In this document: positions 24,634-52,248 of the stretch, piece after piece
Layout of the letters: each line of letters begins with the position of its first letter
How positions within the stretch are numbered: the stretch's first letter is position 1
DNA from: Cloeon dipterum
Taxonomy: Eukaryota; Arthropoda; Insecta; Ephemeroptera; Baetidae
DNA: 64,000 nucleotides
Direction of reading: 5' to 3'
NCBI RefSeq assembly: GCF_949628265.1
Contig: NC_088788.1
Span: forward strand, 27,948,335 to 28,012,334
The notes under the pieces: generated by a model
What the model saw: the letters and a program-made list of their open reading frames with translations, nothing else
What the model was told of the DNA's origin: nothing
Database searches by the model: none
Translations under genes and position numbers: made by a program

Positions 24634-24667
24634 TGCAGGAAGGACTCAGGAGTGATAAATAGCGAAG
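24634..24667 (+). promoter_or_regulatory. Shared promoter block of peptide gene P1
   Basis: GCAGGAAGGACTCAGG followed by GTGATAAATAGCGAA. The TATA-like GATAAATAG sits about 45 bp before the ATG. The block is identical to that of P3 and clearly related to those of P2, P4, P5 and P6. Confidence 0.65.
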
Positions 24668-24698
24668 CACGCGAGCGTTTTTCTGCAGAACAGCAATC

Positions 24699-24774
24699 AT
24701 GGCCAAGACGCAAGCATTGTATCTCCTCCTGTTGTTGACAGCATTGGTTTTGGCTGTCCAATGTATTCCTGCAG
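24699..24774 (+). pseudogene. Peptide gene P1, only promoter and signal exon left
   Basis: The 76-bp signal exon is identical to exon 1 of P3 (MAKTQALYLLLLLTALVLAV then QCIPA) and ends at the same GC-type donor (GCAG then GCAAGT). After about 24800 the match to P3 is lost, and homology returns at about 24950 (TTTGATACGGAA) and again at 25160-25350. The segment holding exons 2 and 3 in P3 is therefore missing, and a LINE 3' end lies at about 25060-25115. Without a splice the frame stops at the sixth base of the intron. I see no replacement exons and call it a broken copy. Confidence 0.7.
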
Positions 24775-25059
24775 GCAAGTAACAAAACAAATAGAAAACA
24801 TACAATGTACCTGTCGAGGCACCAAGAAGAACCAAGCGCATCGTAAAAAGCAACCCTGACGTGAAATTCAGGTATATCCAGTATCATTGGCAATAGTTAC
24901 TTCAAGAAGAAATTGCAATTCAGAAAAAAAGTAACAAAAATACAAGATACAACAATTTTGAAGTCAGTGTTTGATACGGAACATAAAATAGGTTTTAGTT
25001 ATATGTTAGAAATTTCACAAAATTTGAAAAAATCCTTAAGACTCAAATGCTTTGTTATA

Positions 25060-25115
25060 TTTTTTGTTAAGTTCTGGATGTGGATGTATGGGGCACAGTT
25101 GCCCTGCTGATCCGT
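25060..25115 (+). mobile_element. LINE 3' end
   Basis: The words GGATGTATGGGGCA, GCCCTGCTGA and CCGTAATAAA match the 3' end of the LINE at 54160-54215 (ATGTATGGGGCAAAATAGCC, then CATAATAAAG). It is a 5'-truncated insertion within the P1 remnant. Confidence 0.6.
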
Positions 25116-25319
25116 AATAAACAAAATTTGAATCTAAACTGATTTTAAAGTTTTTAATTTGGCTGTAGCGTTTACACTTGAATAGAATATTCGGACGTTT
25201 CAGATTTCATTTGAAATTGGAAGGCACCCAATAAGAGCTAAAATAGTTTAGTATTTTTCCTACATCATTAAAAATCATTATCAAACGAGATTTATTAGCA
25301 ACTTTTTTTAAAGACTCAA

Positions 25320-25570
25320 AACCTCACCGTCGGGTCGAACCAGATTGGCAAGTAAACAGTTTTGATGACCCTTATGAGTCCTTTAAATTATGGATAAAAA
25401 TAAGATGGTCAATTATTAACAAACGTGCTATGTATTCTTTCGTTTAATATTATTTATAATGTATTGACTCCAACAATAAACAAGTGTGTATTACCCCAGG
25501 GAATTTAATTACATCCTGTCTGCGTTGACCAACATTTAATGCCAAAATGAAATATTTGTAATCAATATCC
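25320..25570. repeat. Direct repeat C, copy 2
   Basis: Second copy of the repeat at 24071-24430. A short third piece (CTCACCGTCGGGATCGAACC) lies at 32074-32103, downstream of P3, in the same relative position. Confidence 0.65.
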
Positions 25571-26067
25571 TGCTAGTTTGAAATTACGTATGAAAACTCT
25601 GATGGTAAAATAGAGGTAAATTCCGTAACTTTGGAATATTTACGAAAAATAATTGAAAAAAAATGCAAATTAATGAAGACACAAATATTGCTGGTTGTAA
25701 GAGGAATGGAAACTACCAATCCGTTTGTTGTAAATCGGTGGACGTTTCATTTGAAGCAAAGCTGAATCTAAAGCGACTGCGGAGGGGAAGAGGCAAATAA
25801 ATAATAATCAAAGCGGCCAGTTAGAATTGGCTTCATATTAAAACTGGTACACGCACACAGTGTGTGTTATTGCCTCGTGCAGACCACATTTCCAGGGAAT
25901 AATTTTAATTAATTTCCACGGCGGGCGGCGAGCGATAAATTAATAAATCCAGGCGTTCGGCGGCAAAGAGGTTCTCGCGTATGTGGCAGTCGTACGTAAA
26001 TAGCTTGCACACACCAGGGCGAAGTAATTCGAGCGTCGAGCTCAGCTCGCAAATGTGTTTGTGTGCG

Positions 26068-26142
<75 letters not shown>

Positions 26143-26500
26143 GTGGCCTGGGGATTGTTAATAATAAGCAACCCTTGCAGGTGAAACAATGCCGGTCGGT
26201 TGGCCGGTGATTTAAATACCGTTTATAATGGGCCTCTCATGAATATCTCGCATAAAGGAGCGCTGCTTTTGCTCTCGCCTATCTCACATTAAATATTGCA
26301 TACACACACACAACACGATTTCCTCTTCTCCAGTTCGCAATTGTATTATTTTCGGGGTCCAGGCTACCCGAACGCTGGGCAAATACACATCTCGGCATTA
26401 TGCACTTCTTTTGACGCCATCCCCCATTGTGCGGGTGGGAGACCTCTTTTGGCATGAATGTTTCAAATACCGACCAGTTGATGTATATTTGCCTGCCGCC
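25571..26500. other. Spacer with a GA microsatellite
   Basis: No gene detected. It contains the GA array at 26071-26138. Confidence 0.45.
26071..26138. repeat. (GA)n microsatellite, 68 bp
   Basis: An uninterrupted GA run. Confidence 0.98.
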
Positions 26501-26504
26501 GCCT

Positions 26505-26880
26505 TGCTTCAGTTGGCCACCACTTTTGGTCCGAACTCGGCTAGTCCGACCAGTAAGGCACATTCATGCATGCAGATTTGACGCCCCAACACTAGTGTAT
26601 GCGCCGAATTTGCATCACATCATTGGGTTGAAAGGGTACTTTGATTATTTTAGGACCTTTTCCAGAACCTGTTCTCGTGCAATTCTTCATTCCTTTTCAT
26701 TTACTTGTTAAATCCAAATTAAGTGCCACTTATTTTATTTTTTAAGTGAAAATATATTAATCTGAAAATATTAATTAATATTTTATATCTGGGTGAATTT
26801 TCAGAGCATTAACATTAGTATTATTCCCTAAAAAACCTCGCACACAAATATCATGAAATAGTACAGGCCGCAAAAAGGGG
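26505..26880 (+). repeat. Repeat B, copy 1
   Basis: Nearly identical to 36347-36745 and partly to 35070-35340. Shared words include CACTTTTGGTCCGAACTC, GGCTAGTCCGACCAG, AACACTAGTGTATGCGCCG, ATTGGGTTGAAAGGGTACT and GGTGAATTTTCAGAGCATT. It is non-coding. The other two copies stand directly upstream of P5 and P6, but no peptide gene follows this one. Confidence 0.8.
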
Positions 26881-27099
26881 AGTATCCCAAACTTGCAGTG
26901 GATTTTTGCGGTATTTACCATTTTTGTGCTGTTTTTTGCACCTCATGATAATATAATGAACAAATAACATTTTACCATATTTAATCTCCTGCCCTAGTCA
27001 GAAAGTCCACATATCTTGCTGAAATTAATATTTTATGTAGACCATTTGATGCATATTTGTTAGGCTTAGTGCACGCTACAGTTGTCCACTGTAGGTCCT

Positions 27100-27225
27100 A
27101 ACTGTGGCTCGGGTGGTCCGACGTACGAACAAAGCACATATTCATACATGCAGATTTGACGCTCCAACACCTGTGTATGCCGAATTTGCATTACATCATT
27201 AGGTTGAAGAGGTGCCAGTGAGTAT
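27100..27225 (+). repeat. Repeat B, diverged fragment
   Basis: CATGCAGATTTGACGC, CCAACAC, TGTGTATGCCGAATTTGC and ACATCATTAGGTTGAA match the left half of repeat B with several differences. Confidence 0.6.
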
Positions 27226-29810
27226 GCCTCTCGTTTTGGTCGCAGCCGCAGAGAAAATCGTGCAATCAGTGCGGTTTAAATTCGATTTTGTTGGGTGAAT
27301 GCATTAAGCACTGCTTGTTATTCCACTACTGTCTGGAATACTGTGTCTTAAATCAAGAAATTTAGGATAGTTACAAATTTTACGAATCAGGAATAAAAAA
27401 GAGCCTTGGTTTTATTTCTATGAAGTAGAATAATGTGTATTAAATTACTATAAATTATTACTTGAAATAAGCTATAGCAAATCAAATAAATATATTAAAT
27501 AAATGAAGCATCAAGGAGATTTATATAGTTGATTGAAATATGTACCGAAAATGGCTTCAAAACTGAATAAAAGAAGTTTAAAATTGAAATATTCAAAAAT
27601 TAAAATTCTTTAAAACCACAAGAAATAGAGTCTACGTTTAAAACAAAATATTTTAATTTAAATGGTAGTTCCATTTTCATAAGTTTTGTGTTTCACGTGA
27701 ATCAATGTGAAAGATAAGCTACGCTATTTTATATAGTTAGAGTATAAATATGGACATTCGTATAGATGAAAAACTAGTTTAAAACACAATTCGATCCCAT
27801 AACGGTCTCTCAATTAAGGAATGGGTCGGTGTCTGAAAAATTGAGGAAGAACGAGCTCTTGAGAGCCAATGCAAAAATTGATTTCCTCATTGGTATAGAG
27901 TCTTATATCTCGTTAATAATATTAATATTTCGTGGTTTCGATGTGTAAAAACAGATCAAATAAACATAATAAACCCTCGGTAAAATCGATTGATTGTGGG
28001 ATTTCTCCTTAAATTTTTCTGAATTGTAAATCTGGGCCTCGAATTTCTTGCAGAGCAAACAGTGATGCACCGTGAGCCATCGCCAAAGCATAATTGAGCC
28101 CGGCTGACGAGCGAATAAATACTGTTCTGCATATATCGGCGGCAGTTTGCGAAGTTCAGGGGTCAGTCAAGCTCTGGCAGAACTGTCCGTCCCCAGGCTA
28201 CGGTAAGTGGCTGTGTAGTATAGTATTATTATATTGCGGCACATATTCAAATGCGGTGCGGTCATTGCGCGCAAGAGCGAGGAGAGGGAGACTGCTGGGA
28301 CATGCGAGGGTGTTTGTTATTTTTTTCCGGCCGGCATTGTGCTCTGCCATTGTCCGAGAAGGTGCTTCCTACATTAATCAAACCATAAATTCTCTCTCGC
28401 TCTCGCTGCTTAAAGAGCGGCCGCCTTTTTTGCATGCTCTCGCTCTAAACTAAAAGAGCAATTCATTCTGCGCGCGGGAATATTTATTCAAATTATTCTG
28501 CCGGCGCCACTCTGGAAATAATACGTGTTATTTTTTGAAAAACAACGCCGACCGTCGCCCTGCTGGCTGCTGCTGTTTTATAGCATGCAAATTCCGCCGC
28601 GTCGGGGAATCCATTCATTGGCCATTTTTCCTGCATACCTCCGCATGTTGCTGAGATTGCCGCTTTTTGCGTGCACCAGAGCAATTCAGGTTCTTTTTGA
28701 CTCGCTAAACGGTAGCCTTTGTTTGCATTTGGAGAGCGTTTTTGCCCAAAAGTTCAATGCAACCATAAGGTCAACAATTTATAGTTGGAGAATTTAATAT
28801 CCCACTCTTTACATAATTTAACTCACAAACGAACGTGTTCTAAATGTGAAACTCTGCTTAAACCCTTGTTCAGGGTAAACCACTCCCTCTTCCATAGTCA
28901 AATTGCTGAATTTCGATTCGTTAGGTAGCAGAAGCAAAAACGAGCAAAAAAACTTAGTACTGATGACAAGTAGAGATGTAAATCCTTAACAAAGGCGTGT
29001 ACACCGTAGACAACTCAGGGAAAACAGCAGAGAAAGCCAATTTTTGCCATCCCGGCTTTATTTTCGGTCCTTTTGCCAGGCTAACAGCGGGGTACGAGAC
29101 AAATTCATGCTGTTTTCGTCTGGGAAATAAATTTGATAATATTATTAAATGTAGCGTGGACCATTTAAAGAGATTTTCAAGCAAATCATTTTTTTATCTT
29201 GTTACGGGCAGGATGAGCGCGCGCCAGCGGATTCTGCTGGTGACCACAGAAAATAGGAACTCGTATTCATTCGTTTCGTGCAGCACCAGCACAAAAATCC
29301 ACTCTCGCAGTTCTCCCACTTGGCTGCTCCTTTCGCAGCCGCAAATAAATATAGTCATGCATAGCAGCCGACACGAATTTACGTGTAAAGCGAGATAGTT
29401 CTCTTTGGGGAATTAATTTTCCCATTGAGATTTGCTTTATGAGCATCGCACACCGTAATTTTTGTAACAAATGATTTTGGAGTCTTCAAAGTAGCAATTT
29501 TCCACTTTAGTCTCTTTGAATTTTGCCCCTCTTTATGTAAAAATTACTCATTATGATGCTGTAAGTATTAAAACAGCCTTTTATCCAAGAACCCTGATTC
29601 TGTACAAAAATAATTCTTCGTTAGGATTTTAACTGCTTTTGTGCTATTTTGTATCAGGCATCACAATAAAATCGGTACAAAAAAACGAGTTGTTTGTGTT
29701 CGCAAGGTCGAAAGGTTATAAAAAAAAATTCATAATTGATTTACTTGTACGCAGGAATTTTGCGGCCACAGTGTTGTTTAATCATTAAAAACAAGATAGC
29801 AAGGATGTTT
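27226..29810. other. Spacer, no gene found
   Basis: AT-rich to 28090, then a GC-richer block to about 29400. No frame shows a recognisable domain or a convincing signal peptide with splice sites. Confidence 0.4.
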
Positions 29811-29843
29811 TGCAGGAAGCCCCTCAAGGGAGATAAATAGTGA
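29811..29843 (+). promoter_or_regulatory. Shared promoter block of peptide gene P2
   Basis: TGCAGGAAGCCCCTCAAG followed by GGAGATAAATAGTGAA. The TATA-like core is about 49 bp before the ATG. GGAAGCCCCT is close to an insect kappaB-type site (GGRRNNYYCC, one mismatch); this is a resemblance only. Confidence 0.65.
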
Positions 29844-29880
29844 AATACGCGTGCCTTTAATTTTCAGTAGTGCAGGAATC

Positions 29881-30317
29881 ATGGCTGAAGCACAAGCATT
29901 CAATTTTCTCCTCCTCCTCCTGTTGACTTACGCAATGATTATGGCTGTCCAATGTGCTCCTAAAGGCATGTTACAATACTTTAGTAAATTAAAAATATTA
30001 GCATTACATCATTGCAGGGTTAATTTCAAGTAAATTAATATTTTATGGTGACATCAGATAGTAAGAAGAAAGGTTTTAAGCCACACTATTTAAATGATAA
30101 AAGTGTATTAATGGAATATTTAATATAACATGTGAAGTAAAAATGTCTAATGTCTTAAAATTTTCAGAAGAAACATCTCCAAGCGGTGGAGTTAGGTGGG
30201 TTCACAGTTTGAGTTGAATTTTGATAATTTTAATGTGCTTTTTGCTTTAGAGAGGAACGCATCTGGAGGAATGTCATAGGTGCAGTTAGAGGAGCGATCC
30301 AAGGCTGGGGTCGATAA
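29881..30317 (+). CDS. Secreted amphipathic peptide precursor P2, 59 aa
   Basis: Exons 29881-29965, 30168-30195 and 30251-30317, with phases 1 and 2. Exon 1: signal peptide MAEAQAFNFLLLLLLTYAMI then MAVQC. Exon 2: acidic spacer (EETSPSGGV). Exon 3: the RxxR motif REER, its first Arg split by intron 2, then IWRNVIGAVRGAIQGW followed by Gly-Arg and stop. Gly-Arg at the end would be trimmed and used for C-terminal amidation. The predicted product is a 16-residue cationic amphipathic amide. The first donor is GC (AAAG then GCATGT); the GT 4 bp further on would break the frame. AATAAA lies at 30372. Exact family unknown; antimicrobial, venom or signalling roles are all possible. Confidence 0.8.
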
Positions 30318-30996
30318 TAAATGATGGTTCAAGCTGATGGAGAAAAATTATTTGGCTCTTTATGATTCTTAAATAAATTAATACAGCAAATACGAATCTG
30401 CATTTTTATTTCATTTCATGATATTGTCTCCTCCCCAAATGATCAGTAGATGGTGGAGAAATAAATCTCTTTATGGGATGACAATTTTTCGGCTAGCTTT
30501 TGAGCTAAAAAGGTCATAAAACACTGCGTAATTCTGAAATATTTATTTCATTAAAGGAAATTTTAAATACGAAACTTTTACACTCTCTAATATTTACATT
30601 TTCACTAAGCTCAACAGTTAAAATTAATTTGTCTCTTTCCTTTAAATCAAAGGCAGTTCATTGCATTAAAATAAAAATGACTGAATTAATTCACATGTAG
30701 ATTTTCATTTCATGAAAATTTCAATTTTTGTGACAAGGTTTATGTTAAAACCACTTAATACATTTAATATTTAAAATTTGCTTGCAATAATTCTCACTCG
30801 AATTTCAACATTTATTTTCTCAAAAACTTCGATTTAAATTAAAAAAAATAGTTCAAAAATTACCATCGCAGTAAAAAAACTGAACAAAATTGTACGATTG
30901 CGTTGAATTCTCGAAAAATTAATAATTAAGGAAGTTTACGACGGTGCTTTATTTCTACAGTAAAATTAGAAGCACGATTAATTGTTTTGGGTGGTT

Positions 30997-31029
30997 TGCA
31001 GGAAGGACTCAGGAGTGATAAATAGCGAA
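30997..31029 (+). promoter_or_regulatory. Shared promoter block of peptide gene P3
   Basis: Identical in this block to the P1 promoter (GCAGGAAGGACTCAGG, GATAAATAGCGAA), about 45 bp before the ATG. Confidence 0.65.
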
Positions 31030-31061
31030 GCACGCGAGCGTTTTTCTGCAGAACAGCAATC

Positions 31062-31496
31062 ATGGCCAAGACGCAAGCATTGTATCTCCTCCTGTTGTTG
31101 ACAGCATTGGTTTTGGCTGTCCAATGTATTCCTGCAGGCAAGTATCAAAACAAATAAAAAACATAAAAAACAGCTCCAATTAGATGACTGGCTTTTCTAA
31201 GTAACTGTAAATTTAGGAAACTCGAGTATCAATAATCGTTACTTTTTGGTGGTTGTCATTGAATTTTTCAAGTGTTTAAAATGTATTCTTTTAATGAATT
31301 CCAAATATTTTCAGAGGAAATGTCGCCAAATGTAGCAGACAGGTGCGTCAAGCCTATGCCATAAAAATTTCCGTTTTTAATTGCTGTTTACAATTTATTT
31401 TCCAGACACAAGCGCATGTATTTTCCACCAAATTATATCCATAGACCTTGTGGAAAACTGGGACTGGGTTGCTTGCCGATGAAAGCAGTCGGATAG
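31062..31496 (+). CDS. Secreted peptide precursor P3 with two cysteines, 64 aa
   Basis: Exons 31062-31137, 31315-31342 and 31406-31496, with phases 1 and 2. Exon 1 is a Leu-rich signal peptide identical to P1. Exon 2 encodes EEMSPNVAD. Exon 3 starts in the split Arg of the furin-type site RHKR, followed by a mature segment that starts MYFPPNYIHRPC and ends with CLPMKAVG at the stop. The two cysteines are six residues apart and could close a loop; the final Gly is an amidation donor. Unlike its relatives this peptide is Pro/Tyr-rich at its N-terminus and not a simple helix. The first donor is GC (GCAG then GCAAGT). AATAAA lies at 31522. Confidence 0.8.
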
Positions 31497-31559
31497 ATTG
31501 TTGGTGCGTTCCGTGATTTCAAATAAACTATATATGGTAATGCATTTGATTGGGAAAGC

Positions 31560-32328
31560 AACTTAAATGTTTGTTCTGTCTTGAAATAAATTTGTAAGTT
31601 CAGCAATCGCAAATATGTTTTATTTTTAACTGTCCCAATTTAAAGAATGCATTGTAAAATGGTAAGTGAAGAGCTCTCAGTTTTGAAGTTACATTGTTTG
31701 ATACGGAATATACAATAGAAAAGTTTATGAAAATTAAAAAAATGCTTTACAAGAAACGTAATAAATTGATTTAAAGGCATCTATAGTTAGGCTGTAGCAT
31801 TGAAACTTGAATAAAAATTACGGACGTTTCAGATTTCATTTGAATTTGGAATGAACCCAATCTAAGCAAAAATTGTTACATAATTTTTCTTAATCTTTGG
31901 TAGAAAATTATTAATACATTCAATACAATATAAACCAAATAAATTGTAGATATTAAATGCACCTGCTTTTTATGAGCACCATCCATCTTCTGTGTAAACG
32001 GAGAAAGGGAATAAACAATAAGTAGTCATGATCAAATGAAATTTATTAGCAGCTCATTTAAAATACTCGTACTCTCACCGTCGGGATCGAACCAGATTGG
32101 CTGCATCATTTTCTTTTATTGTTGGCAAAAGTGCGACACAAGTTTGATTGCATAAATTGCGCGAGCGAGCCGGTCTAGTGTTAATCCTAGCAAATGCGGC
32201 GCAAACACTGCGAAGGCCGCTGAATCCTGCGACCGGCTGCAAACGGGCTGCTCTGTATTAGATAAATTGCAACTGTGTGTATGCAAACACGCAGGCCGGC
32301 GTGAAAGGCAAGATCGCAATCACCCCCG

Positions 32329-32373
<45 letters not shown>

Positions 32374-33615
32374 GACTACATATGCAGAAAAGGGAGCGAA
32401 AAGTGTGCGAGTGTGCTGCAACAAGATTTGATCCCCTTTCAGAGCTGGCGCGCGAAAATAAGCACAGCTCTCTCGTCTCTGCATGGATGGCGTCTCAATT
32501 TCAGCGCCTATTTTTCCTTCCGGCGCGCAATTTTATTTCAGCAGTTGAGGGGGTCGCCTCTTGACACCTTAAAACAGGGACACGCGTAAATTTCTTTCTA
32601 GGAGGCACCTTTTATTTGAAGCCACAAAAGTCAAATTCCAGCCGTCAGCCACAGTAAGCAAAAGGTAGACGGGAAATGTAGCCGCCATAGCTGGCCGTTT
32701 TTTAGACCTTAAGGCCTACAATTGTTGCGCCCTAAAAGGCAGCTAGACAAAATCAAATTATGAGATTTATAAATAAACGCCTGATAGGAAGGGTGTCTGA
32801 GAATTAAATCTCAGTGTAGAGACACTGCGTATTTTTTTAAGTTTTTAAATTCTGCAAACATCATAGCATTTTATGTTAAATCAAAGAAATAAATGTGATC
32901 AAAATAACATTTAAGTTCGAAAAAGTCTTTAAAGAGTTGATTTCGTTACGTCAGGTATAAAAAAGGCAATTATTAGATTCAAAATTTTAGCCAAAATATA
33001 CTTCGTGTCACTGTTTTTACGATCAGTGAAAAACGAGTGGTAGCTTGAGACGGATTTTGTAATATAAGACTTTGTTTTCACAAAGAATGTTGCCCGCTGG
33101 AATTATATTTTGAGGCAAACAAGGGGTGCCCCATAGCAAGACGGAGGCGCAAGGGTGGTGAGAGAGCGAGTCGAGACTGCTCGTTATGCCCTGAGAACTT
33201 CTTGCTCTGGAGAAAGACAGCGAGCACAATATCTGGCTGCCTGGCTTGCTTGCTCGGATTTCTTTAATTACGCGCGCGGCCAACAAAATTACTTTCTGTT
33301 ATTTCCTCTCGCTTTTCAGCTCGTCGGCTGGCGTCTCTCACTCAGGGCGGCCCGCATTCAAAAGTGGCTCTTTCTCTCTGACGTTGGCCTCGAGACCGAT
33401 CTTATATGATATTCCCTTTTCAGCCTCGCCTTGCTTTCCTGCCTCGCAAGTATTTGTAATTTAAACGCACACGCCACTTTGATATCGGACTGCTTTTCCT
33501 CTTCTTAACTTGCCTGCTTTTAATTTCCGTTATTGAAACAACGCCGCACTGTCGTCTTTGATGAGGACGCCGCTCGTAGCCAATGCCACAGCTCCAGCCT
33601 ATGTTTTCAGAATTA
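31560..33615. other. Spacer: downstream part of the P1/P3 unit, then no gene
   Basis: 31678-32103 matches the region after P1 (24950-25355), including TTTGATACGGAA, GGACGTTTCAGATTTCATTT and CTCACCGTCGGG. From 32104 to 33615 there is non-coding DNA with a CA run at 32337-32370. Confidence 0.5.
32337..32370. repeat. (CA)n microsatellite
   Basis: A CA run of about 34 bp. Confidence 0.95.
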
Positions 33616-33619
33616 GTTT

Positions 33620-33930
33620 CAAATAATGATCTTTGTTATGGTTCTAAAGGGCTATTTTGCCGCTTACATTGCCATATCAGACAAATCAATTCACGTATGA
33701 ACATAATGGTTAAAGAGAGGTGAGACGTTGGTTCAATATCTCTTTAAGAATTGTTCTTTTAAAAATTCTTTTATTGCACTTAAGTTTACGTTCAGACGCA
33801 GATTCGGAAGAAGATCATTCCACAGGCGGTAGCTTTGAACTTTAAAACAGTTTCCGGGCACTTCAACACTTACAAACGGGGGCAGCAGTTTCATTCGATG
33901 CGCTCTAGTCCTCTGCCTGCAGGTTAGCAT
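33620..33930 (-). mobile_element. LINE 3' end with C-terminal protein fragment
   Basis: The minus-strand frame 33733-33930 ends with MKLLPPFVSVEVPGNCFKVQ, then SYRLWNDLLPNL, and a Lys-Arg-Tyr end. It matches the end of the plus-strand LINE at 53.4-54.2 kb (FVSVEVPEKCFQVQSYRL). The 3' flank also matches (GGCAAAATAGCCCT-type words). It is 5' truncated and non-functional. Confidence 0.75.
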
Positions 33931-34320
33931 TGTTCATTTTGGTTGCTAGAGGGCTCAAATAAGGCGGACTATTTTTAAACAGAATTATAGGCATAATCTT
34001 GAATTGCAAACCGAAAATATGGCTGCTGAATTTTGTATTGACCAAAGTTCGTGCAAGGGTATTTTATTTTAGGTTTCGTTTCCGTTTTCTTGGAATTTAG
34101 CTATAAACAAATGAAAACAGGTAGAATTAATTTTGCTACTTTTAAGGAGCAAAAGGATCAAGCAGATTTGATGTAATTTCATCTACTTTTAATAAGTAGA
34201 GAGAAGTATAGAGACACATAATATGATTGGGATAATTTAATAGTTTATAAGAAGGTAAACAGGAAATTGTATGAGTTTTCATAACAAATTATGTATACAT
34301 ATATATAAAGATAAGATATG

Positions 34321-34352
34321 GAGGAAGCCTTTCAAGTGTGATAAATAGCGAA
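34321..34352 (+). promoter_or_regulatory. Shared promoter block of peptide gene P4
   Basis: GAGGAAGCCTTTCAAG followed by GTGATAAATAGCGAA, with the TATA-like core about 47 bp before the ATG. Confidence 0.6.
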
Positions 34353-34387
34353 CAGTGCATGCTTTTGACGGCACAACAACTGCAATC

Positions 34388-34856
34388 ATGTTCACGGCAA
34401 AAACACTCTGCATTATCCTTTTATTGAATTTCGCGATGATTTTCGCCGGCCAATGTGCTCCTGCAGGTATGTTCTTGTTCTTGTTTGATTACAAAAGAAA
34501 AATTAAAACAAAAATTTCAACTAAAAAACCTACAGTTGCTCAGTCTTGTTGTTTGAATTTTCATGAAAAGCACACGTAGGATTTAAATTTAAAACATTGG
34601 CTTCGTTTGATGACTTTCAGCTCCTTTTTCAATTTAAGCTGAATTTGAGCGATGTTTTATATTTTTTTATTGCTTGCAGGGAACACGTTGGATAATGACG
34701 AATTGAGGTATGTTTTGTGATGAGAAACATTGAAAAGTTATGTTAATATTTATTATACTTCAACACAGGGATGAACGAATCTGGCAATACGCGAAATACA
34801 TTCCCAATGCCATTAGTGCAGTACAAGGAGCGATCGATGGTTGGAAGTCAGGCTAA
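34388..34856 (+). CDS. Secreted amphipathic peptide precursor P4, 64 aa
   Basis: Exons 34388-34466, 34680-34707 and 34769-34856, with phases 1 and 2. Exon 1: signal peptide (MFTAKTLCIILLLNFAMIFA then GQCAPA). Exon 2: acidic spacer (NTLDNDEL). Exon 3: the RxxR site RDER with its first Arg split by intron 2, then a segment that starts IWQYAKYIP and ends GAIDGWKS, then Gly and stop (amidation donor). It shares the IW start and the GAI-x-GW end with P2 but has an insertion between them. This is the only plus-strand copy with a normal GT donor (GCAG then GTATGT). AATAAA lies at 34933. Confidence 0.8.
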
Positions 34857-35069
34857 AAACGAAGGATGCAGGCTGATGCAACATAGCAGATGAAAATGTC
34901 ATTTTATTTCGTTGTCAAAAATGATATTAATAAATAAATGTCGACAATCGCAAAACATGTCTTACGTTTTAAACCATTAAAAAACAGCCTCTCTTTTTTG
35001 GATCCAATTTATATTCTTTATAAATTCCAATCAAATGGAATTATTAAATTATCTCTTAATTTTTTCGTT

Positions 35070-35340
35070 TTTTCACATCATTGGGTTGAAAGGGTACTTC
35101 AATTAGCACCTTTTCCAGAACCTATTCTCGTGTAATTCTTGCCCCCTTTTCATTTACATTTTAAATCAAAACTTTAGCGCCACTTATTTTATTTTATTAG
35201 TTAAGTATTTACCGATATATGTTAAAAATATTAATCTGACAATATTAATTAACATTTGAAATCTGGGTGAATTTTCAGAGCATTTACATAATTATATTAT
35301 CCCCTAAAAAAACATCGCAAACAAATATCATGAAAAAGTA
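35070..35340 (+). repeat. Repeat B, copy 2 (left-truncated)
   Basis: Starts at ATCATTGGGTTGAAAGGGTA and continues through CCAGAACCTATTCTCGTG and GGTGAATTTTCAGAGCATT. It lies directly upstream of P5 and forms the left part of the duplicated P5/P6 unit. Confidence 0.75.
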
Positions 35341-35537
35341 TTTCAAGTGGTGAGCCAAGTTCTATGAAAAGACCATATTTGTTTTGTTCATTTAGTTAGG
35401 TTAGGATGTTGATAATACTGTAACAGAGTATATTTTTGTTTTCACTTGTAAGATCAAGGGAGCAAAATATTTTGCGATTAAATTCACGGGTTGTTTTTCA
35501 ATTAAAAATGAACCAGATAAGTTAGTGGTATTTGCTC

Positions 35538-35572
35538 AGCAGGAAGCTCCCTCAGAGATATAAATGGTGAAG
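35538..35572 (+). promoter_or_regulatory. Shared promoter block of peptide gene P5
   Basis: CAGCAGGAAGCTCCCTCAG followed by AGATATAAATGGTGAAG, with the TATA box about 43 bp before the ATG. GGAAGCTCCC fits the kappaB pattern GGRRNNYYCC exactly; functional relevance is inferred. Confidence 0.65.
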
Positions 35573-35602
35573 CGCGCAAGCTTTAGGCACACATCTGAAA
35601 AC

Positions 35603-35992
35603 ATGGCCAAGGAACAAGCAATACATTTTCTTCTCTTGCTGACTCTAGCATTGGTCTTGGCTGTTCAATGCGCTCCTGCTGGCATGTATCAAAACATTAA
35701 TATATTATCATTTAAGTCATCCTTCTAAGATTAGCAAGAATGGATCTTGCTGGTTTTAATTCTTTACAATAAAATGTCTTAGATTTGTTACATTTTAAAT
35801 CATTTTTTCGATATATCGTTATTTTTTATTTATATGTGATTTCAGAAAGCTCTCAATCAGACACTGAAGAAAGGTATGTTTCCCAAAATACCGAGTCGCA
35901 ATAGGTTTTATTTTTAACTTTTAAGGGAAAAGCGCGTATTTCCTTGGCTTATCGCTGGTGCAAGTGCATTGGTAGGAAAAATCCTTGGATAA
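35603..35992 (+). CDS. Secreted amphipathic peptide precursor P5, 57 aa
   Basis: Exons 35603-35681, 35846-35873 and 35926-35992, with phases 1 and 2. Exon 1: signal peptide MAKEQAIHFLLLLTLALVLA then VQCAPA. Exon 2: acidic spacer ESSQSDTEE. Exon 3: furin-type REKR (first Arg split by intron 2), then VFPWLIAGASALVGKIL, Gly and stop. The predicted product is a 17-residue hydrophobic, weakly cationic helix-forming peptide with a C-terminal amide. The first donor is GC (GCTG then GCATGT). Using the GT 4 bp downstream gives an early stop in exon 2, so the GC donor is needed. AATAAA lies at 36085. Confidence 0.82.
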
Positions 35993-36346
35993 ATCAGGAA
36001 CTGTGAAATGAAGAACAAAGCTGAGATGACCCAACGTTTTGAACAAGTAGTGTTAATAATGCATTTTTGAGGAGTCTGCAGATAAATAAATTGCTATCAA
36101 TTAATTAATTGTTTCACTGGTGTTTTGTAACATGAATCCTTAGGGTACAGTTAAGCTTTTAAAATTTCTATCGATGTTAAATTTTTTATAATACTTTTAA
36201 CTCACACAACTAGAGGTCTCAGCCACGATATTTAAGGCAGTTGCTGGCGGCACAGGCTTAGCCGATTTTTTGTCCGGCGGAGGCGGCCGGCGTGGCTTTA
36301 TAATGTTTTAAACGAAATTTGGTAGTTCTTAACGGCCCGAAGTGTT

Positions 36347-36745
36347 ACAGTTGGCCACCACTTTTGGTCCGAACTCAGCTAGTCCGACCAGTTAGACACA
36401 TTCATGCATGCAGATTTGAAGCCCCAACACTAGTGTATGCGCCGAATTTGCATTACATCATTGGGTTGAAAGGGTACTTCGATTATTTTAGGACCTTTCC
36501 AGAACCTACTCTCGTGCAATTCTTGCCCCCTTTTCATTTACTTCTTGTTTACATATCAACACTTTCGCGCCACTTAATTTATTTACTTCTGTAAAATATT
36601 TACCAATTTATATATGTTAAAATATTAATCTGAAAATATTAACTAACGTTTGATATCTGAGTGAATTTTCAGAGCATTTACATACATTATCATCTTTAAA
36701 AAACATCGCAAGCAATTATCATGAAATTGTACATGCCGCATGGGG
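36347..36745 (+). repeat. Repeat B, copy 3
   Basis: The closest match to 26505-26880. It starts at GGCCACCACTTTTGGTCCG and lies between P5 and P6, forming the left part of the P6 unit. Confidence 0.8.
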
Positions 36746-36927
36746 TGAGCTAAGTTTCATAAACGGACCATATTTGTTATGTTCATTTAGTTAGGATATT
36801 GATAATACTGTAACAGAGTATATTTCTGTTTTCATTTGTAAGATCAAGGGAGCAAAATATTTTGCAATTAAATTCACGGGTTGTTTTTCAATTAAAAATG
36901 AACCAGATAAGTTAGTGGTATTTGCTC

Positions 36928-36962
36928 AGCAGGAAGCTCTCTCAGAGATATAAATGGTGAAG
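36928..36962 (+). promoter_or_regulatory. Shared promoter block of peptide gene P6
   Basis: Differs from the P5 block by one base in the GGAAGCTC part (CTC then TCAG instead of CCC then TCAG). The TATA box is about 43 bp before the ATG. Confidence 0.65.
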
Positions 36963-36992
36963 CGCGCAAGCTTTAGGCACACATCTGAAAAC

Positions 36993-37380
36993 ATGGCCAA
37001 GGAACAAGCAATACATTTTCTTCTCTTGCTGACTCTAGCATTGGTCTTGGCTGTTCAATGCGCTCCTGCTGGCATGTATCAAAACATTAATATATTATCA
37101 TTTAAGTCATCCTTAGATTAGCAAGAATGGATCTTACTGGTTTTCATTCTTTACAATATAATGGCTTTTGCCATTTCCAATCAATGTTCAAAATTTCGTT
37201 AATTTTGATTTATTTGTAATTTCAGAAAGCTCTCAACCAGACACTGAAGAAAGGTATGTTTCTAAATCTCCTAAAATACCGAGTTACAATAGGTTTTATT
37301 TTTAACTTTTAAGGGATAAGCGCGTCTTTCCTTGGCTTATCGCTGGTGCAAGTTGGTTGGTAGGAAAGATTACTGGATAA
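36993..37380 (+). CDS. Secreted amphipathic peptide precursor P6, 57 aa
   Basis: Exons 36993-37071, 37226-37253 and 37314-37380, with phases 1 and 2. Exon 1 is identical to that of P5 over all 79 bp. Exon 2 gives ESSQPDTEE. Exon 3 gives RDKR, then VFPWLIAGASWLVGKIT, Gly and stop. Compared with P5 the mature segment has Ala to Trp (three base changes in one codon) and Leu to Thr (two changes). The first donor is GC (GCTG then GCATGT). AATAAA lies at 37472. It is a sister gene of P5 from a local duplication. Confidence 0.82.
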
Positions 37381-37539
37381 AGCAGGAACTGTGAAATGAA
37401 GAACAAAGCTGAGATGACCCAACGTTTTGAACAAGTAGTGTAATGATGCATTTTTGTGGAGCCGGCAATTTAATAAATTGTTATCAATGAATTCATAGTA
37501 ACATTGGTGTTTTGTAATACGAATCCTTGGGTACATATG

Positions 37540-40500
37540 TTTAAGCTTTTTAAATTTTCTTCACGCTAAAACTGTTATAAAAATTAAAACAATGCAAGAA
37601 AAGCATTTAATCCCTTAGTAAGTTTCTGTAAAAAATTGAAATTTGAAGATGCCTCCAGCACACACAAATTAATAGTTAATAGTAGATATATACATTTTCA
37701 TATTTCAGTTTTATTATTTTCTTTTCTTTGAAAGAATAGCTTTGATAGCTTAATTCTAAACTTTTCACAAAGAGACTGCCTGAAATAATTTTCGTAATAT
37801 TATTTATTTATTTATTTAAAGAAACACCAATTGTGTACAACAAACATAGACATGCATACAATATTACAGTACACCAGCACGCATGAGAATAAATGGGATC
37901 TTCTCGCATTCCAAAAAGTGGTAGAAATTCACATGTTCATCACGGAACATACATTTACAATCGAGACCGGCCTGACAATGATATTTCTTGTTAGTAAAGT
38001 ACACATAATTATGGTCGTGCCTGGTGAAAACATGTATATTTAGAAATCAGGCATTTTTTCGTAAAATTATAGTATGCATTATTTAGTCGTGCAAGTTGCC
38101 AATTAAATTACATATTCTATAATATATTATTTAAACATCTCCCCTTGAAGTGAAAAGACAACTCATTGTTAGTCCAAAATGAAATTTGAATTTCTCGCAC
38201 AAACATGGAAAGTATTCTAAGCAACATAATCCGCTATTTTTTTACTTTGACACAGAGACAGCAAGGAAATGATTATTTGATATTATCGATTTAAAATAAT
38301 TCATTCCTAAGAATTTTATAATATGATATATTCCATGTGTTGTACACTGTTGGTGTTTAATAAATATAATAATACAAAAAATAATTCATTCCCTGAGAAA
38401 AATTTACTCAAGTTCCCACCAATGCAATCTCATTTTCCAGCATTCTCTACACCCGTTTTCCTAGCCTGTCTTATTTATTTCATGCAGAAGGCGATGATAT
38501 CTCCCAGCATCATTCTCCGGCAGGTCATTTTCGGCAATGAAGAAAGCGCGCGTCGCGTACGCCCGACTTTCACGCGTCCTTTTGCTGCACGTACATATGT
38601 AAACCACGCACAATATAAAAAAAGGGCTGCTCTGTCCTCCTTTATCATTTTGCATGAGGGCATGCACGCACGTTGGCTGCTTTTTTGCCGAAATTGCTGC
38701 TGCTTCTGTTTGTGACAGCCGTCGGAACACAAAAGGAATTTTTATCAATACCACGCACCAAGGACTTTACGCTCGGCTGCCCGCCCATTCACAGCCCTTG
38801 CCAATAAAGCTGCCGACATCATTATCATATGTATTATACGGTGCGCGTGTTGGCACTTATTATTATTTGTCAATCAAAGGCTTTAAGCGCGCAATTTCCT
38901 TAGCAAGCGTATTAGCAGCTGCCACTTTCATCAAAACAGCCGGCGAATCCAGCGCTCACTTTTGTCGCGATTGTCAATTACACTCGCAGATATTCGCCGC
39001 ATGGACCCTCTTTGAACGTGAATAAAAACGCCACTCTTCATCAGACGCGCGCCATCAACAAGTATTGGCGGCCGGGGACACTCTCCTCGACTTTGCTCTT
39101 CTAGATGCCATCGCAGACACACCTTGTCCAGATGTGCGCAAAATTATCAAGGATTATAAAAATTAGACAAAAAATTTTAAAGAAAAACAACAAAAAGACA
39201 CATTAATGGGCTATGAGATATTTACCTAAAAATCGCTTCAATGGAGCCAAATACCGCCAAAAGGGGTCCAAAATACCATCTAAATTGGCATTAAAACCGT
39301 CTAAAGATATAGTCGTCTCTTTTGTAAAAAAAAAACATCTAAATATCCCAACCCTAAACTTGACACCACATGTTCTATTGGAAATCCTTGGAGGAACGCA
39401 TGAACTTGAAACATGATATCCTGTTAGTTTAGTCATCTTCAAGACGTGGAAAAAAGTACGTCGACTTAAATTCCCACAATTCTTTAATAATTATTTGTCC
39501 ATAAATGCTCGCGGATCTCTGTTCAAGGTGTGTGTCTGCCTAGCTCAGAAGAAACGCAGAGAAGAAATCGGCGGGATCGAGTGGATAGCTGGGCTGTCAA
39601 TTTTCTCAAATTCCATCTCACTCGCTTGTGCGAAAGATTTCAAAGGCGCCTGCTCCCCTGCTTCATCTGCGTTCACTCTTCATTCTGAATGGCGCAACTA
39701 ACTGCCGAGAGACGGAAATTGATTGACTGCTCTATCTGCATATATTTGCTTCGATTCAAAGAGATTGTTGAGGAAATTTCGCCGGCAGATGAGACGCGCT
39801 CACTCTTGAGCAGGAAAATGGGTCGAGGCGAAAATCGTGACAGAGGCAATTTTTACTCCCGGCACGAATTTCCATCGTCTATCCTTTTCTACGTGTGCGT
39901 GCTCCGATCAGCATCACACTACACCCCAGCTTTTGTTGCCCAAGGAAGATTTGCTCAAGAAATTGAGCTACTTTTCAACGTATAAATCCATCTGCATTAG
40001 TGTTATTTCAAGCCTTAGGAATCACTTGTGGTTTCCTGTTTTGCCAAGTGGTGCCAATAATAAAAATATGTTTTCTTGATTTTAATTTATAGATAGGACG
40101 AAATTAATTGTGTTTTTTCCGTGCGTAGTTGGACTTGCAACATGAAAACGCTCTGAATATAAATTTTGTTTTCCTTATGTTAGAAATTGTAAACTTATTT
40201 TGCTTATTTGACATTGCCTGATTTAAGTGAGATAGACCTTGCAGTATATTTCAAATGTTTCCGAATTATTTGTATTTCGATTAATATAACGACAAAAATG
40301 AATTTTGTAACTGTAGCTTTTGAACAATAAATTAATAAATTATGGTATGCTATATATACACGATAAAAGCGTTCTAGCATTCTTATCTTGAATAAATAGA
40401 TTGAAACCACAGGGAAAACATTATATTAAATTTTAGTAAGGTATGCACATAAACGATTCAAAAGAAAAGAACATTATTCTTAATTATACATCTAGGAATT

Positions 40501-41550
40501 CGCTGCATGGACCATAAAAGGCTAACTTTGTTAAAACAAACAATATTTTTTTGTTGCCTGAATGTCGAAAACCAAATTGAAAGTTAATTTAGAGCGGGAA
40601 TACAAATTTCAAAAGTGGCGAACAGCCATACATTTTGTGCAGTCTCATCATTTATATCGACCGGCATTGGGAAAAGGCCGCGAGGCTCGAATCAGATAAG
40701 CGGCGAAAATCAGAATTGCCGAAAAATCCAGTGCTCGCGCGCAATTCAGCGGGCGGGCGCCTAGCGTCGTTCCAACTTGCTCACATAAAGATAAATTTCG
40801 GCGCCGTGCATAATTTCCCACGAGTGAGATTTTTTAGAGTTATTCCGGTAGATTATCCTCGGGCTCTCTTTTGCCTGCACTCCTTCTCTCTTCGCTTCCT
40901 CGGCGGGCGCGGCATAAACCAACACTAAACATGTCATTCATAAAAGAATCTTTGACGACTCGGCCGTGCATCCACCTTGGGAGATATTCCTCTCTCTCGT
41001 CGGCTCAAAACTTTTTATATGAATTTTAATGCGACCCGAGAGAATACAGCACCTCGGAATTGAATTTATTTCCCGTTCTCTCTCTCTCTCACTTTCCTAG
41101 CAGCCCACGTTCCGTTTCTCCTCGCTACCCCTTTTGATTCGATCAACAACTCACCGCGAGTGACAAGAATATGCTTCCGAGGTCTTCCGCACAATTAAGC
41201 TCGCAACTTTGTTGAACAAAAACTTGCTGTACGAGAATAATATGTATTCTATACTTCTTGCGCGCATTCACTTTGGAATCGGAAAGCCGCTGTTGGATGC
41301 GGTCGAAGTTGAAGTTATTCTTGAGAGATCGCCACGAGACGAGGCAGGAATCCCTTTTCCTCAACTATTGTGGCAAAAAAGTTGCACAGTGCATTTCTTG
41401 TTGCATCCGGAAGTAACACAACTTCAGAATGTTGCTAGAAAAAGCTAATTAAAAGAAGCGCTGTAGGGATTCAGCGCTAATTTGTTTTTTCCTGCATTCG
41501 TTGCTAATATAAGCATTTAAGTTAAAATGATCTTCAACTTAACAATAAGT
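37540..41550. other. Spacer, no gene found
   Basis: No supported gene. AT-rich to 38400, then GC-richer. Frames at 38323-39025, 39495-40079 and 40635-40928 overlap frames on other strands and show no domain, signal peptide with splice sites, or repeat homology. Confidence 0.4.
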
Positions 41551-41905
41551 CTAGGGTGTAGCATGTTGGACACACCGGTTTTCGTTAGATCACCGAAGAA
41601 CATTCGTTGCAGTCAGTATGTGGTGGATGGGTGACCGTCTGCATGCCGGCTGCATAATTCTAGGCTGACTCGCTACTTGCTGGTTTGCACCTTACCAGCC
41701 TGCGTGATTTTGCTTCACGGGACGAATGTCCAGCGTTTCAATGCAGTCTTCGGTGCGGAGGCAAGTGGCCCTTGAGTGGGCTGGGTCCCTGTGCGGCCTG
41801 GTGCGCCCATGTTATCCGTTCGCGGTGTAATTGGCGCCCGGGTTTCAGCATTCGTGCTAGTGCAGTGCGCGCCCTTCCCGGTCCTCGGACAGGAAAAAAC
41901 CAACG
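41551..41905 (+). mobile_element. SINE with a 5S rRNA-like head (SINE3 type)
   Basis: The first 110 bp resemble 5S rRNA: CACCGGTTTTCGTTAGATCA followed by CCGAAG, and the C-box region TGGATGGGTGACCGTCTGCA. That order and spacing is the 5S internal promoter. A GC-rich body follows (GGGACGAATGTCCAG, CGGTGCGGAGG, GTGGGCTGGGTCCCTGTGCG, CATGTTATCCGTTCGCGG), ending near GGTCCTCGGACAGG. The 3' 115 bp recur at 58257. It is probably transcribed by RNA polymerase III and dependent on a LINE for mobility. Confidence 0.75.
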
Positions 41906-42285
41906 ATAAATCTCATGTTTGTTAGCTATGAATCAACTCTTTACCCTGAACACTCACGAGTTTAAAAGATTTAAAAAAGGATTATCACAAAAACTGTAAA
42001 AAATTATATCGTGTAATACGAGACCAGAAATTGGCAGTAAAATATGGATAGGCCAAAAATGGGCAGATTTTAAATGTTGCTCCAATAACATAAAAAAGTA
42101 ATTGATCGGAGGGAGAGTCGGATATGATTGCAAATGAAAATTTGTTACATGTTTGCAATGTACACTTTTTTCAACTTTTCGTATGGTTTTACTTCGTTTA
42201 CTTGATATCTGCAATAAGGCACAAAGTTTTCAATGTTTTACGTTAAATTTTATTTAGTTTTTCACATGTTTCATTTTTAGATAGT
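41906..42285. other. Short spacer downstream of P7
   Basis: No gene. It contains the likely P7 polyadenylation signal on the minus strand (TTTATT on the plus strand near 42249). Confidence 0.4.
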
Positions 42286-42708
42286 TTAACTGTTTTCTAC
42301 TTCTTGTTCCTTTTCCTTAGTTCCGTGATTGATTTCAACCATGAATGCTTCTACACCCTTGACCATAGCTCTCCAGACCAAGTGCTTGTTCTTCCTGTGG
42401 AGAGAAATGGTTAATTTGAAAACTGGAAAGTATAAAAATTATTGGCATAGAAAGCGGTATATATATAAAAGTCTCAATTAAGTAGAGAATATAATATGTA
42501 CTGACATGACAAACCCAAAAAGGCGCTTGTTTTGAATATTAGCCCCCGCATCCGGATCTGCATATCCTAAAATGAGATGGAAATTTAATCAGTAACATTT
42601 TGGTCATTATCAAGAACCGTTAATACCTATGGAAGCACTCTCGATGGACAATGCCAGCACAGACATAATCAGGAGGAGGTAGCAGAGCTGGGCTGAAACT
42701 CTGGCCAT
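42286..42708 (-). CDS. Secreted peptide precursor P7, divergent member, 83 aa
   Basis: Exons 42627-42708, 42506-42566 and 42286-42394, with phases 1 and 2 as in P2-P6. Exon 1: signal peptide MARVSAQLCYLLLIMSVLAL then SIESASI. Exon 2: acidic spacer (YADPDAGANIQ), then Asn-Lys-Arg cleavage site and LFGFV. Exon 3: KNKHLVWRAMVKGVEAFMVE, then an acidic/Lys-rich tail (TKEKEQEVENS) after an internal Gly. A cationic helix of about 27-29 residues is the likely active part. It differs from P2-P6 in having the cleavage site in exon 2 and a C-terminal tail. Both donors are GT (G then GTATTA; AT then GTCAGT). The phase of the second donor decides the frame of exon 3. Confidence 0.7.
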
Positions 42709-51142: not shown

Positions 51143-52204
51143 ACGATAATCCGGCCGACTTTATTGTCTCAGCGAGCTGCAGCTCTCGTCGTGGATAAGG
51201 CTGCTGATTTACAATATCTTTGCTATTGCCACGACCGCGTCGGCAAGAGCAGAGCGCGGCTGCAATTTCGGTAATCCTCTTTTGCCTTTATGCTTTATCG
51301 CTTTATCGAATTCAATTCAGCGTGAAATTCTCCGAGGTTTGCTAAATCCGACCCACCAAACCTCGGCATTTTTCCAGCACTTGCCTGAATGGAAGCGGAA
51401 GGTGACGCTTGCATTTTTTCCCACCATCAGGTCGCAAGTTGACTCGAAGCCGTCGTCACATCCTTCGATGTCAACCTCAATCAAAGAGTACGCTGAACCT
51501 ATAATATCAGATAATACATATTTGATTGTTAATATCCACTGAATTTGAATCATGTCATCATATAATTTTTTCGTTGACTATTGAAGTTGAACCATTAAGA
51601 AAAGATAATGCAAATGGAGTATACCAAATGTACTTGTACCACATTTGTATGTACACACGACTAATAGAAGCAAGAGAGTGAGCAGTGCCTGCCCTCAAGG
51701 GTCATTAATATCCGCGAATCGGAGATCCTTCTTTAGCCCTCTCGAGAGGCAACCGTGCAAATAATTTGACAATATTTTCATTTTTCCACATGATATTTCG
51801 CATTACTTCTTGCTCGGTAAAATGTGCTTTGTTGGTCGAGACGAAGTGATCGGAAACCAATATCCTGTGATTACTATATTGGACTTTATCATATCTCCAA
51901 ACAAAACTGTTCGATAGCAATTTCAGACCGAGATTTGTCCGCTCGCATGGGAAATCTGGAGGATTAATTATTACGACACATCGACTAGTGCACTGATAAA
52001 AATAAAAGCGATGCAGATGCACGGGAGTTTGTGAGTGATATTAAATTCTGGCTTGCGTTCGCGACTAACCCGCTTCGCATCGCGAGTTAGATGAATGAAA
52101 GTTTGATGAGAAATCCTACCGCAATCCTCATAAGAGATACTGCCGGCGTGGGCGGCTGCAGCGACGAGCAGTAGCGAAATTAGAGCGAACAGTTGACGTG
52201 ACAT
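50500..52204 (-). CDS. NPC2-like (ML domain) secreted lipid-binding protein, 159 aa
   Basis: Exons 52120-52204, 51381-51498, 50860-51028 and 50500-50607. The start is a signal peptide (MSRQLFALISLLLVAAAAHA). The six cysteines of the NPC2 family are present in order: YEDC, IEGC, ESTC, PRNC, FTTC, LLIC. Exon 3 carries the CPIGGGQTHVY segment, and exon 4 the end TWKLYNEGTLLIC followed by ANVVV, matching the usual NPC2 finish. Exon 4 follows a strong pyrimidine tract and acceptor (TCTATTTCAG). The exon 2 donor is GT inside GGCAAGTGCTGG; the nearby GC option would shift the frame. NPC2 proteins bind sterols or other hydrophobic ligands, and many insect copies are secreted. TTTATAAATG lies about 47 bp upstream of the ATG. 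Confidence 0.88.
51080..51141. repeat. (GA)n microsatellite, about 62 bp
   Basis: An uninterrupted GA run in intron 2 of the NPC2-like gene, about 50 bp upstream of the exon 3 acceptor. Confidence 0.98.
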
Positions 52205-52248
52205 GGCGTCCAATTAGCAAACACTCGAATGGATCGACAGTTCACCTC

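Follow-up and report, generated by a model that had tools for sequence, protein, structure and literature searches.

The 64,000-nucleotide (nt) window of the mayfly Cloeon dipterum analyzed here (contig C3, positions 27948335-28012334) carries five intact genes, P2-P6, that encode short secreted-peptide precursors and that, together with one intact gene apiece in two other clusters, on contigs C2 and C5, form a small multicopy family almost certainly made up of real genes. The genome searched comprises 190 Mb in 10 contigs and holds three clusters of the family, namely the window and those on C2 and C5, as well as an isolated fragment elsewhere on C3; the number of intact members is thus seven. 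We propose that the family is a lineage-specific, duplicated set of prepro-effectors that most likely yields host-defence (antimicrobial) peptides, a reading to which we give a probability of roughly 0.65 and in which activity, tissue, and inducibility are all inferred. It is suggested by the single architecture of the seven genes, the existence of annotated homologs, the constraint on the prepro part, the fast divergence of the mature part, the hydrophobic moments of the products, and a PHM-like exon in the genome. The peptides, predicted from motifs, are probably C-terminally amidated.

Exon 1 of P2-P6 encodes a hydrophobic leader ending in ...QC(A/I)P and is followed by a phase 1 intron; exon 2 is exactly 28 nt long, encodes a short Glu/Asp-bearing spacer, and is followed by a phase 2 intron; and exon 3 opens with R-x-x-R, continues with the mature part, and closes with Gly, or with Gly-Arg in P2. 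We predicted signal cleavage, furin cleavage, and amidation from these motifs by inspection. The three-exon chains, the phases 1 and 2, and the frames that the first-pass annotation had proposed for P2-P6 were all intact when rebuilt from the DNA, and the furin-type site and terminal Gly that it had described are present in all seven intact genes as RXXR and Gly. The features of P1-P6 are as follows.

24635..24662, + strand: P1 promoter-like block (GCAGGAAG...GATAAATAG), upstream-region alignment
24699..24774, + strand: P1 orphan signal exon, identical by visual comparison to P3 exon 1
29812..29840, + strand: P2 promoter-like block, upstream-region alignment
29881..29965, + strand: P2 exon 1, predicted signal peptide, GC donor, phase 1, rebuilt model
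30168..30195, + strand: P2 exon 2, 28-nt acidic spacer, rebuilt model and architecture search
30251..30317, + strand: P2 exon 3, REER, IWRNVIGAVRGAIQGW, Gly-Arg, stop
30998..31025, + strand: P3 promoter-like block, upstream-region alignment
31062..31137, + strand: P3 exon 1, predicted signal peptide, GC donor, homologs P0002 and P0003
31315..31342, + strand: P3 exon 2, 28 nt, rebuilt model and architecture search
31406..31496, + strand: P3 exon 3, RHKR, MYFPPNYIHRPCGKLGLGCLPMKAV (two Cys), Gly, stop
34320..34348, + strand: P4 promoter-like block, upstream-region alignment
34388..34466, + strand: P4 exon 1, predicted signal peptide, GT donor, rebuilt model
34680..34707, + strand: P4 exon 2, 28 nt, rebuilt model and architecture search
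34769..34856, + strand: P4 exon 3, RDER, IWQYAKYIPNAISAVQGAIDGWKS, Gly, stop
35539..35567, + strand: P5 promoter-like block (GCAGGAAGCTCCCTCAGAGATATAAATGG), upstream-region alignment
35603..35681, + strand: P5 exon 1, predicted signal peptide, GC donor, rebuilt model
35846..35873, + strand: P5 exon 2, 28 nt, rebuilt model and architecture search
35926..35992, + strand: P5 exon 3, REKR, VFPWLIAGASALVGKIL, Gly, stop
36929..36957, + strand: P6 promoter-like block, upstream-region alignment
36993..37071, + strand: P6 exon 1, predicted signal peptide, GC donor, rebuilt model
37226..37253, + strand: P6 exon 2, 28 nt, rebuilt model and architecture search
37314..37380, + strand: P6 exon 3, RDKR, VFPWLIAGASWLVGKIT, Gly, stop

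We searched the 600 bases after each exon 1 for a 28-nt exon 2 joined to an exon 3 with a leading RXXR and a terminal Gly. Such a model is present in all seven intact genes and in one of 14,000 dinucleotide shuffles (2,000 per gene), a contrast that measures specificity rather than discovery because the criteria were set after the genes had been seen. One alternative exon 3 of P4 also fits this search, and no exon 2/3 model lies within 600 bases 3' of the P1 first exon, as in its shuffles (0/2,000). Chance open frames are a very improbable explanation: the exons are short and the models were built here from DNA alone, but the shuffles almost never reproduce the architecture, paralogs exist, and the idea is contradicted by annotated homologs that span the same junctions.

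These homologs were found with a profile built from the seven precursors and compared with 5.77 billion proteins, of which 1155 candidates were scored. At E <= 1 only three relatives were obtained (P0001, P0002, and P0003), each named "Hypothetical predicted protein [Cloeon dipterum]." They are similar, not identical, to the products found here, and they run through the same exon junctions at the protein level. They presumably stem from the published C. dipterum annotation, for which Augustus was run with RNA-seq hints (PMC7250882). Annotated P0001 begins at an upstream ATG that would fall in the TATA-like block described below; translation more likely begins at the inner ATG, as the C2 gene does not have the upstream one. 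Searched singly against proteins, P5 gave nothing at E <= 10, and the mature parts of P3 and P4 likewise had no PDB sequence match at that threshold. No Pfam family, cecropins included, scored over its cut-off for P2-P6, the neighboring gene P7, the C2 and C5 genes, or the four annotated proteins P0001-P0004; weak matches to Acyl-CoA_dh_N, DUF5527, LEAP-2, calcitonin, Anophelin, and Ycf4 were all below cut-offs and were rejected. The earlier reading that the family looks undescribed is upheld. No description of mayfly antimicrobial or defensive peptide families was found among the papers listed in our literature searches, judged from titles and abstract openings. The words "antimicrobial" and "peptide" are each absent from the text of the C. 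dipterum genome paper (PMC7250882), "antimicrobial" is absent from PMC11597413, where the two mentions of "peptide" are unrelated, and "immune" and "peptide" are both absent from PMC11491810. The genes are easily overlooked because their third exons are only 55-91 nt and a GC donor is usual in the first intron, and for the same two reasons comparable families may be absent from other genome annotations.

The donor of intron 1 is GC in five of the seven intact genes (P2, P3, P5, P6, and the C5 gene) and also after the P1 orphan exon; the other two intact genes, P4 and the C2 gene, use GT. We scanned from -40 to +100 bases around the site, keeping exons 2 and 3 constant, for a GT that would preserve the C-terminal frame: there is none for P3, P5, or P6, and one, lying further in, for each of P2 and the C5 gene. 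The junction residues of P3 are the same in its annotated homologs. GC-AG introns make up 1.3% of ~2.46 million introns across 61 species (PMC3033335). Because the copies are related, the GC donors represent one or few events, not five. Separately, the +2 base of intron 1 gives GT in the C2 gene (L026, position 4904) versus GC in the C5 gene (L029, position 6502), their first exons being 98% identical; this difference reads as a recent donor switch.

Members outside the window were identified by DNA and pattern searches of the genome, and their counts are lower bounds. Two pairs, each of a P4-like and a P5-like copy ordered as in the window, were found:

C2:22369579-22371157, - strand: C2 pair, P4-like and P5-like copy
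C5:8391094-8392804, + strand: C5 pair, P4-like and P5-like copy

In each pair the P5-like gene is intact; RDKR precedes the mature part FLDGIVKFIGNIF in the C2 gene, and RDQR precedes QFFSAIGKIIGDII in the C5 gene. Both P4-like copies look broken by inspection, the similarity to P4 starting within exon 1, without its start, and exon 3 being out of frame on C2 and interrupted by an in-frame stop on C5. The C3 fragment (C3:7389230-7389392, within locus L031, C3:7384001-7394000) consists of a promoter block and the start of exon 1 that run directly into intron 2 and exon 3, a fusion that lacks exon 2 as well as the last part of the signal. No other members turned up in additional searches at the pattern, DNA, and protein levels, which set a lower bound. 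Two 3-mismatch pattern matches (L011 and L012) were dropped as no better than the reversed-pattern control (3 matches), and two one-mismatch matches (L057 and L059) were dropped as the control gave 1 match. Within the window, P6 is a tandem duplicate of P5 at a spacing of ~1.39 kb. A repeat block was observed at 26505-26872, 27137-27213, 35073-35346, and 36343-36740, and in the whole-genome search at these four places only, all within the cluster; two copies lie 5' of P5 and P6, and the two at 26.5-27.2 kb, which have no gene, are perhaps remnants of lost copies.

The two parts of the precursor differ in how they evolve. In the prepro part the proportion of nonsynonymous differences (pN) is lower than that of synonymous differences (pS) in 20 of 21 pairs; only the near-identical P5-P6, with no synonymous change in this part, departs from the rule. 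Judged from these comparisons, the prepro part is constrained. The mature segment is 2-3 times more diverged than the introns and ~3-4 times more than the 3' untranslated region (3'UTR) in five of six paralog pairs. In the four pairs of P5 or P6 with the C2 or C5 gene, 43-51% of aligned sites differ in the mature segment, 17-23% in the introns, and 12-15% in the 3'UTR, with the spacer exon at 21-29%, roughly the intron level, and exon 1 at 10%; in the C2-C5 gene pair the values are 24% (mature), 10% (introns), and 9% (3'UTR). The difference between mature segment and introns is significant in these five pairs (Fisher p 2e-5 to 0.02), which share sequences and are not independent and whose mature alignments hold 3-12 gap columns, and it is not significant for P5-P6 (mature 15% vs. 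introns 13%, with 11% in the 3'UTR). At the protein level, differing residues in the mature versus the prepro part number 8/14 versus 3/40 for the C2 gene and P0001 (p 3e-4), 7/14 versus 6/40 for the C5 gene and P0001 (p 0.025), 12/23 plus gaps versus 2/38 for P3 and P0002 (p 4e-5), 6/23 plus gaps versus 3/38 for P3 and P0003 (p 0.07), 12/23 plus gaps versus 1/39 for P0002 and P0003 (p 7e-6), and 12/41 versus 1/42 for P7 and its homolog P0004 (p 7e-4). Diversifying selection on the mature part, though unproven, is likely from these patterns.

The same contrast bears on whether these are neuropeptide or peptide-hormone precursors, which we regard as improbable. A signal peptide, a (di)basic site, and an amide also mark insect neuropeptides, and the precursor architecture fits; however, core insect neuropeptides are conserved across orders, whereas the mature parts here are the fastest-changing, are not conserved across insects, and had no relative outside C. 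dipterum in the profile search.

The mature parts are 13-25 residues long. We compared their helical hydrophobic moments with those of composition-matched shuffles (2,000 each for P2-P7 and the C2 and C5 genes; 5,000 for P0001-P0004 and for the first 28 residues of P7). The observed moment was reached by a fraction of 0.0085 of the shuffles for P2, 0.006 for P4, 0 for the C2 gene, and 0.0005 for the C5 gene, and by 0.04 (marginal) for P5, 0.11 for P6, 0.57 for P3, and 0.03 for P7. The corresponding values were 0.0026 for P0001 (FIGIIAKLIGRVI) and 0.29 each for P0002 and P0003, and, over the first 28 residues, 0.04 for P0004 and 0.06 for P7. The moment is therefore clearly above shuffles in four of the seven intact products, leader and cleavage site having been placed by inspection only. 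The first-pass annotation had predicted amphipathic peptides that look like helical amides; by this measure helical amphipathicity is clear for P2 and P4, as well as the C2 and C5 genes, and marginal for P5, but does not stand out for P6, and P3 has to be withdrawn from the amphipathic helices, as its product has two Cys and a moment that more than half of its shuffles reach. Two Cys characterize the P3 type as a whole (P3, P0002, and P0003), spaced C-x6-C in P3 and C-x4-C in the annotated homologs, and by moment it is not helical; our guess is that it folds as a loop or hairpin. Because two-Cys and helical products share it, one prepro delivers two kinds of product.

A C-terminal Gly that could serve as amide donor, with optional basic residues, ends the product in all seven intact genes, not in P7. 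Seven matches to Cu2_monooxygen exons over the Pfam cut-off were found in the genome, and one of these exons (C2:22245717-22245830) reads TAHHMLLFGC, which we take to be of the type of the amidating enzyme PHM; the enzyme is probably present in this genome, as expected for an insect. Of the Cu2_monooxygen exons, C3:27897684-27898083 lies ~75 kb from P1 and C2:22245717-22245830 lies ~124 kb from the C2 cluster, possibly by coincidence.

On the host-defence reading, signal peptidase would take off the leader at about VQC/AP, a furin-like protease would cleave after RXXR, and PHM would convert the C-terminal Gly into an amide, after trimming of the Arg in P2. The released amphipathic helices (P2, P4, and the C2 and C5 genes) would then act on the membranes of microbes or parasites, and P5 and P6, as more hydrophobic helices, and the P3 type, as a two-Cys peptide, may also act on membranes. 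Gene duplication and later change in the exon 3 segment would equip a constant delivery cassette with new peptides. The family offers a compact and testable case of effector-peptide invention in insects; its predicted peptides are short and open to direct testing.

Nine copies (P1-P6, the C2 gene, the C5 gene, and the C3 fragment) have, at ~35-70 bases 5' of the ATG, a conserved promoter-like block, GCAGGAAG... (GGAGGAAG in P4), and after it a TATA-like element that reads ATAAAT, or ATAAAA in the C3 fragment; the block suggests shared regulation. Among these nine upstream regions, strict kappaB sites are few: P5 matches both patterns, GGGRNNYYYY and GGRRNNYYCC, and P2 and the C3 fragment match the former alone. 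We do not claim an immune promoter, as these matches are too few among nine copies. Their scarcity is one of several observations that weigh against a role in host defence. The net side-chain charge is low (P2 +2, P3 +3, P4-P6 +1 each, and 0 for the C2 and C5 genes), so that the charges are weaker than those of classic cationic peptides. In the mature part, pN is the higher of the two in no more than 8 of 21 pairs; because pS there is often raised as well as pN, the comparison does not amount to proof of positive selection. The same divergence could result from local hypermutation, from exchange of segments, or from conversion acting on the flanks. We think it unlikely that the genes, although real, owe the hypervariability of their mature parts mainly to mutation or conversion, with homogenized flanks, exchanged exon 3 segments, and little selection on the peptide, a scenario that would itself be compatible with a defence function. 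The raised mature pS and the existence of a copy with fused segments (L031) fit that account, but amphipathicity is kept in the divergent products of the C2 gene, the C5 gene, and P0001 (reached by <= 0.0026 of shuffles), and RXXR and the terminal Gly are retained in all seven intact genes.

Among known systems, the precursors of anuran skin antimicrobial peptides have a highly conserved signal, a negatively charged propeptide, and a hypervariable mature region (PMC6245896). The mayfly family likewise combines a conserved prepro with a fast-changing mature region; unlike the anuran precursors, it has its spacer on a separate 28-nt exon and low charges. No sequence relation to anuran or ant-venom precursors was detected, the profile having given only C. 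dipterum proteins at E <= 1. The short, hydrophobic predicted amides may recall temporins. Cecropins are helical insect peptides amidated at a C-terminal Gly; unlike them, the mayfly family has mature parts of 13-25 residues, RXXR processing, a separate spacer exon, and no Pfam cecropin match. Thanatin, a bug antimicrobial peptide, is a single-disulfide hairpin of 21 residues; the P3 type similarly has one Cys pair in a peptide of similar size, but the spacing is C-x6-C in P3 and C-x4-C in its homologs, and the P3 mature part has no PDB sequence match.

Fast mature divergence and duplication, both seen in the mayfly family, are typical of venom and seminal peptides too, and the products could accordingly be exocrine defensive or seminal peptides driven by an arms race or sexual selection rather than effectors of humoral immunity. 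We rate this as unlikely; mayflies are not known to have venom. In its favor, the venom peptide genes of ants (Tetramorium MYRTX) show tandem arrays, two or three exons, one GC/AG intron, and linear or single-disulfide products (PMC10800049). For these genes and the proposed aculeatoxins, the same paper reports short second exons (average 26 bp in A1), membrane-disrupting activity of the linear peptides, amidation signals, and mature parts that vary although the prepro sequences preceding them are similar. The mayfly family resembles these genes in being tandem, in its short exon 2 and GC/AG intron, and in having linear and two-Cys products. It differs from A1, where exon 1 codes for the complete prepro and also for the first stretch of the mature peptide (PMC10800049), in that exon 1 ends before the spacer in all seven intact genes and signal, spacer, and mature part are three exons. 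By analogy, then, the family works like the peptide genes of frog skin and ant venom, of which, as of any Pfam family, it is not a detectable member. Tentatively, and at somewhat short of even odds, it may be confined to Cloeon or to mayflies as a set of young effector peptides, with a fixed three-exon cassette, often with a GC donor in intron 1, helices and two-Cys products, and diversifying selection. If so, the strategy known from frog skin and ant venom would have arisen here independently, and the family would be, as far as our searches show, the first hypervariable defence-peptide system reported from Palaeoptera.

A further gene in the window, P7, had been put forward as an outline member of the same plan, from which it departs: its exon 2 is 61 nt long and contains the KR site, and its product does not end in Gly. 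Its exons are:

42627..42708, - strand: P7 exon 1, predicted signal peptide, GT donor, phase 1, homolog P0004
42506..42566, - strand: P7 exon 2, 61 nt, with spacer, NKR site, and mature start
42286..42394, - strand: P7 exon 3, remaining mature part, no terminal Gly

The P7 leader is of the same general kind as those of P2-P6, and intron 1 is likewise phase 1. A search with P7 gave one further C. dipterum hypothetical protein, P0004, a match that independently supports the model. The contig of P0004 is 696,950 bases long, equal to that of P0002 and P0003, and the three probably share one contig. Searching the genome with P7 gave no further copy at E <= 10. In a single hhalign comparison P7 matched the family with a probability of 31% (E 5e-4). 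The similarity of its signal exon was reached by 13 of 2,000 zone shuffles for P3, 13 for P5, and 5 for the C2 gene, and it was not beyond zone shuffles for P2 (472 of 2,000) and P4 (487 of 2,000). A relationship of P7 to P2-P6 is at best uncertain from these comparisons.

Elsewhere in the window, a ~129-base repeat occurs at 41773-41899 and 58259-58387 (92% identical), the second copy lying just past an open reading frame (ORF) at 57971-58240 (- strand) that has an ML (E1_DerP2_DerF2) domain (42 bits vs. a cut-off of 22.7). An ORF at 51971-52213 (- strand) has the look of a secreted first exon and no Pfam match, and an exon at 15353-15907 (- strand) belongs to a Peptidase family M3 gene (59 bits).

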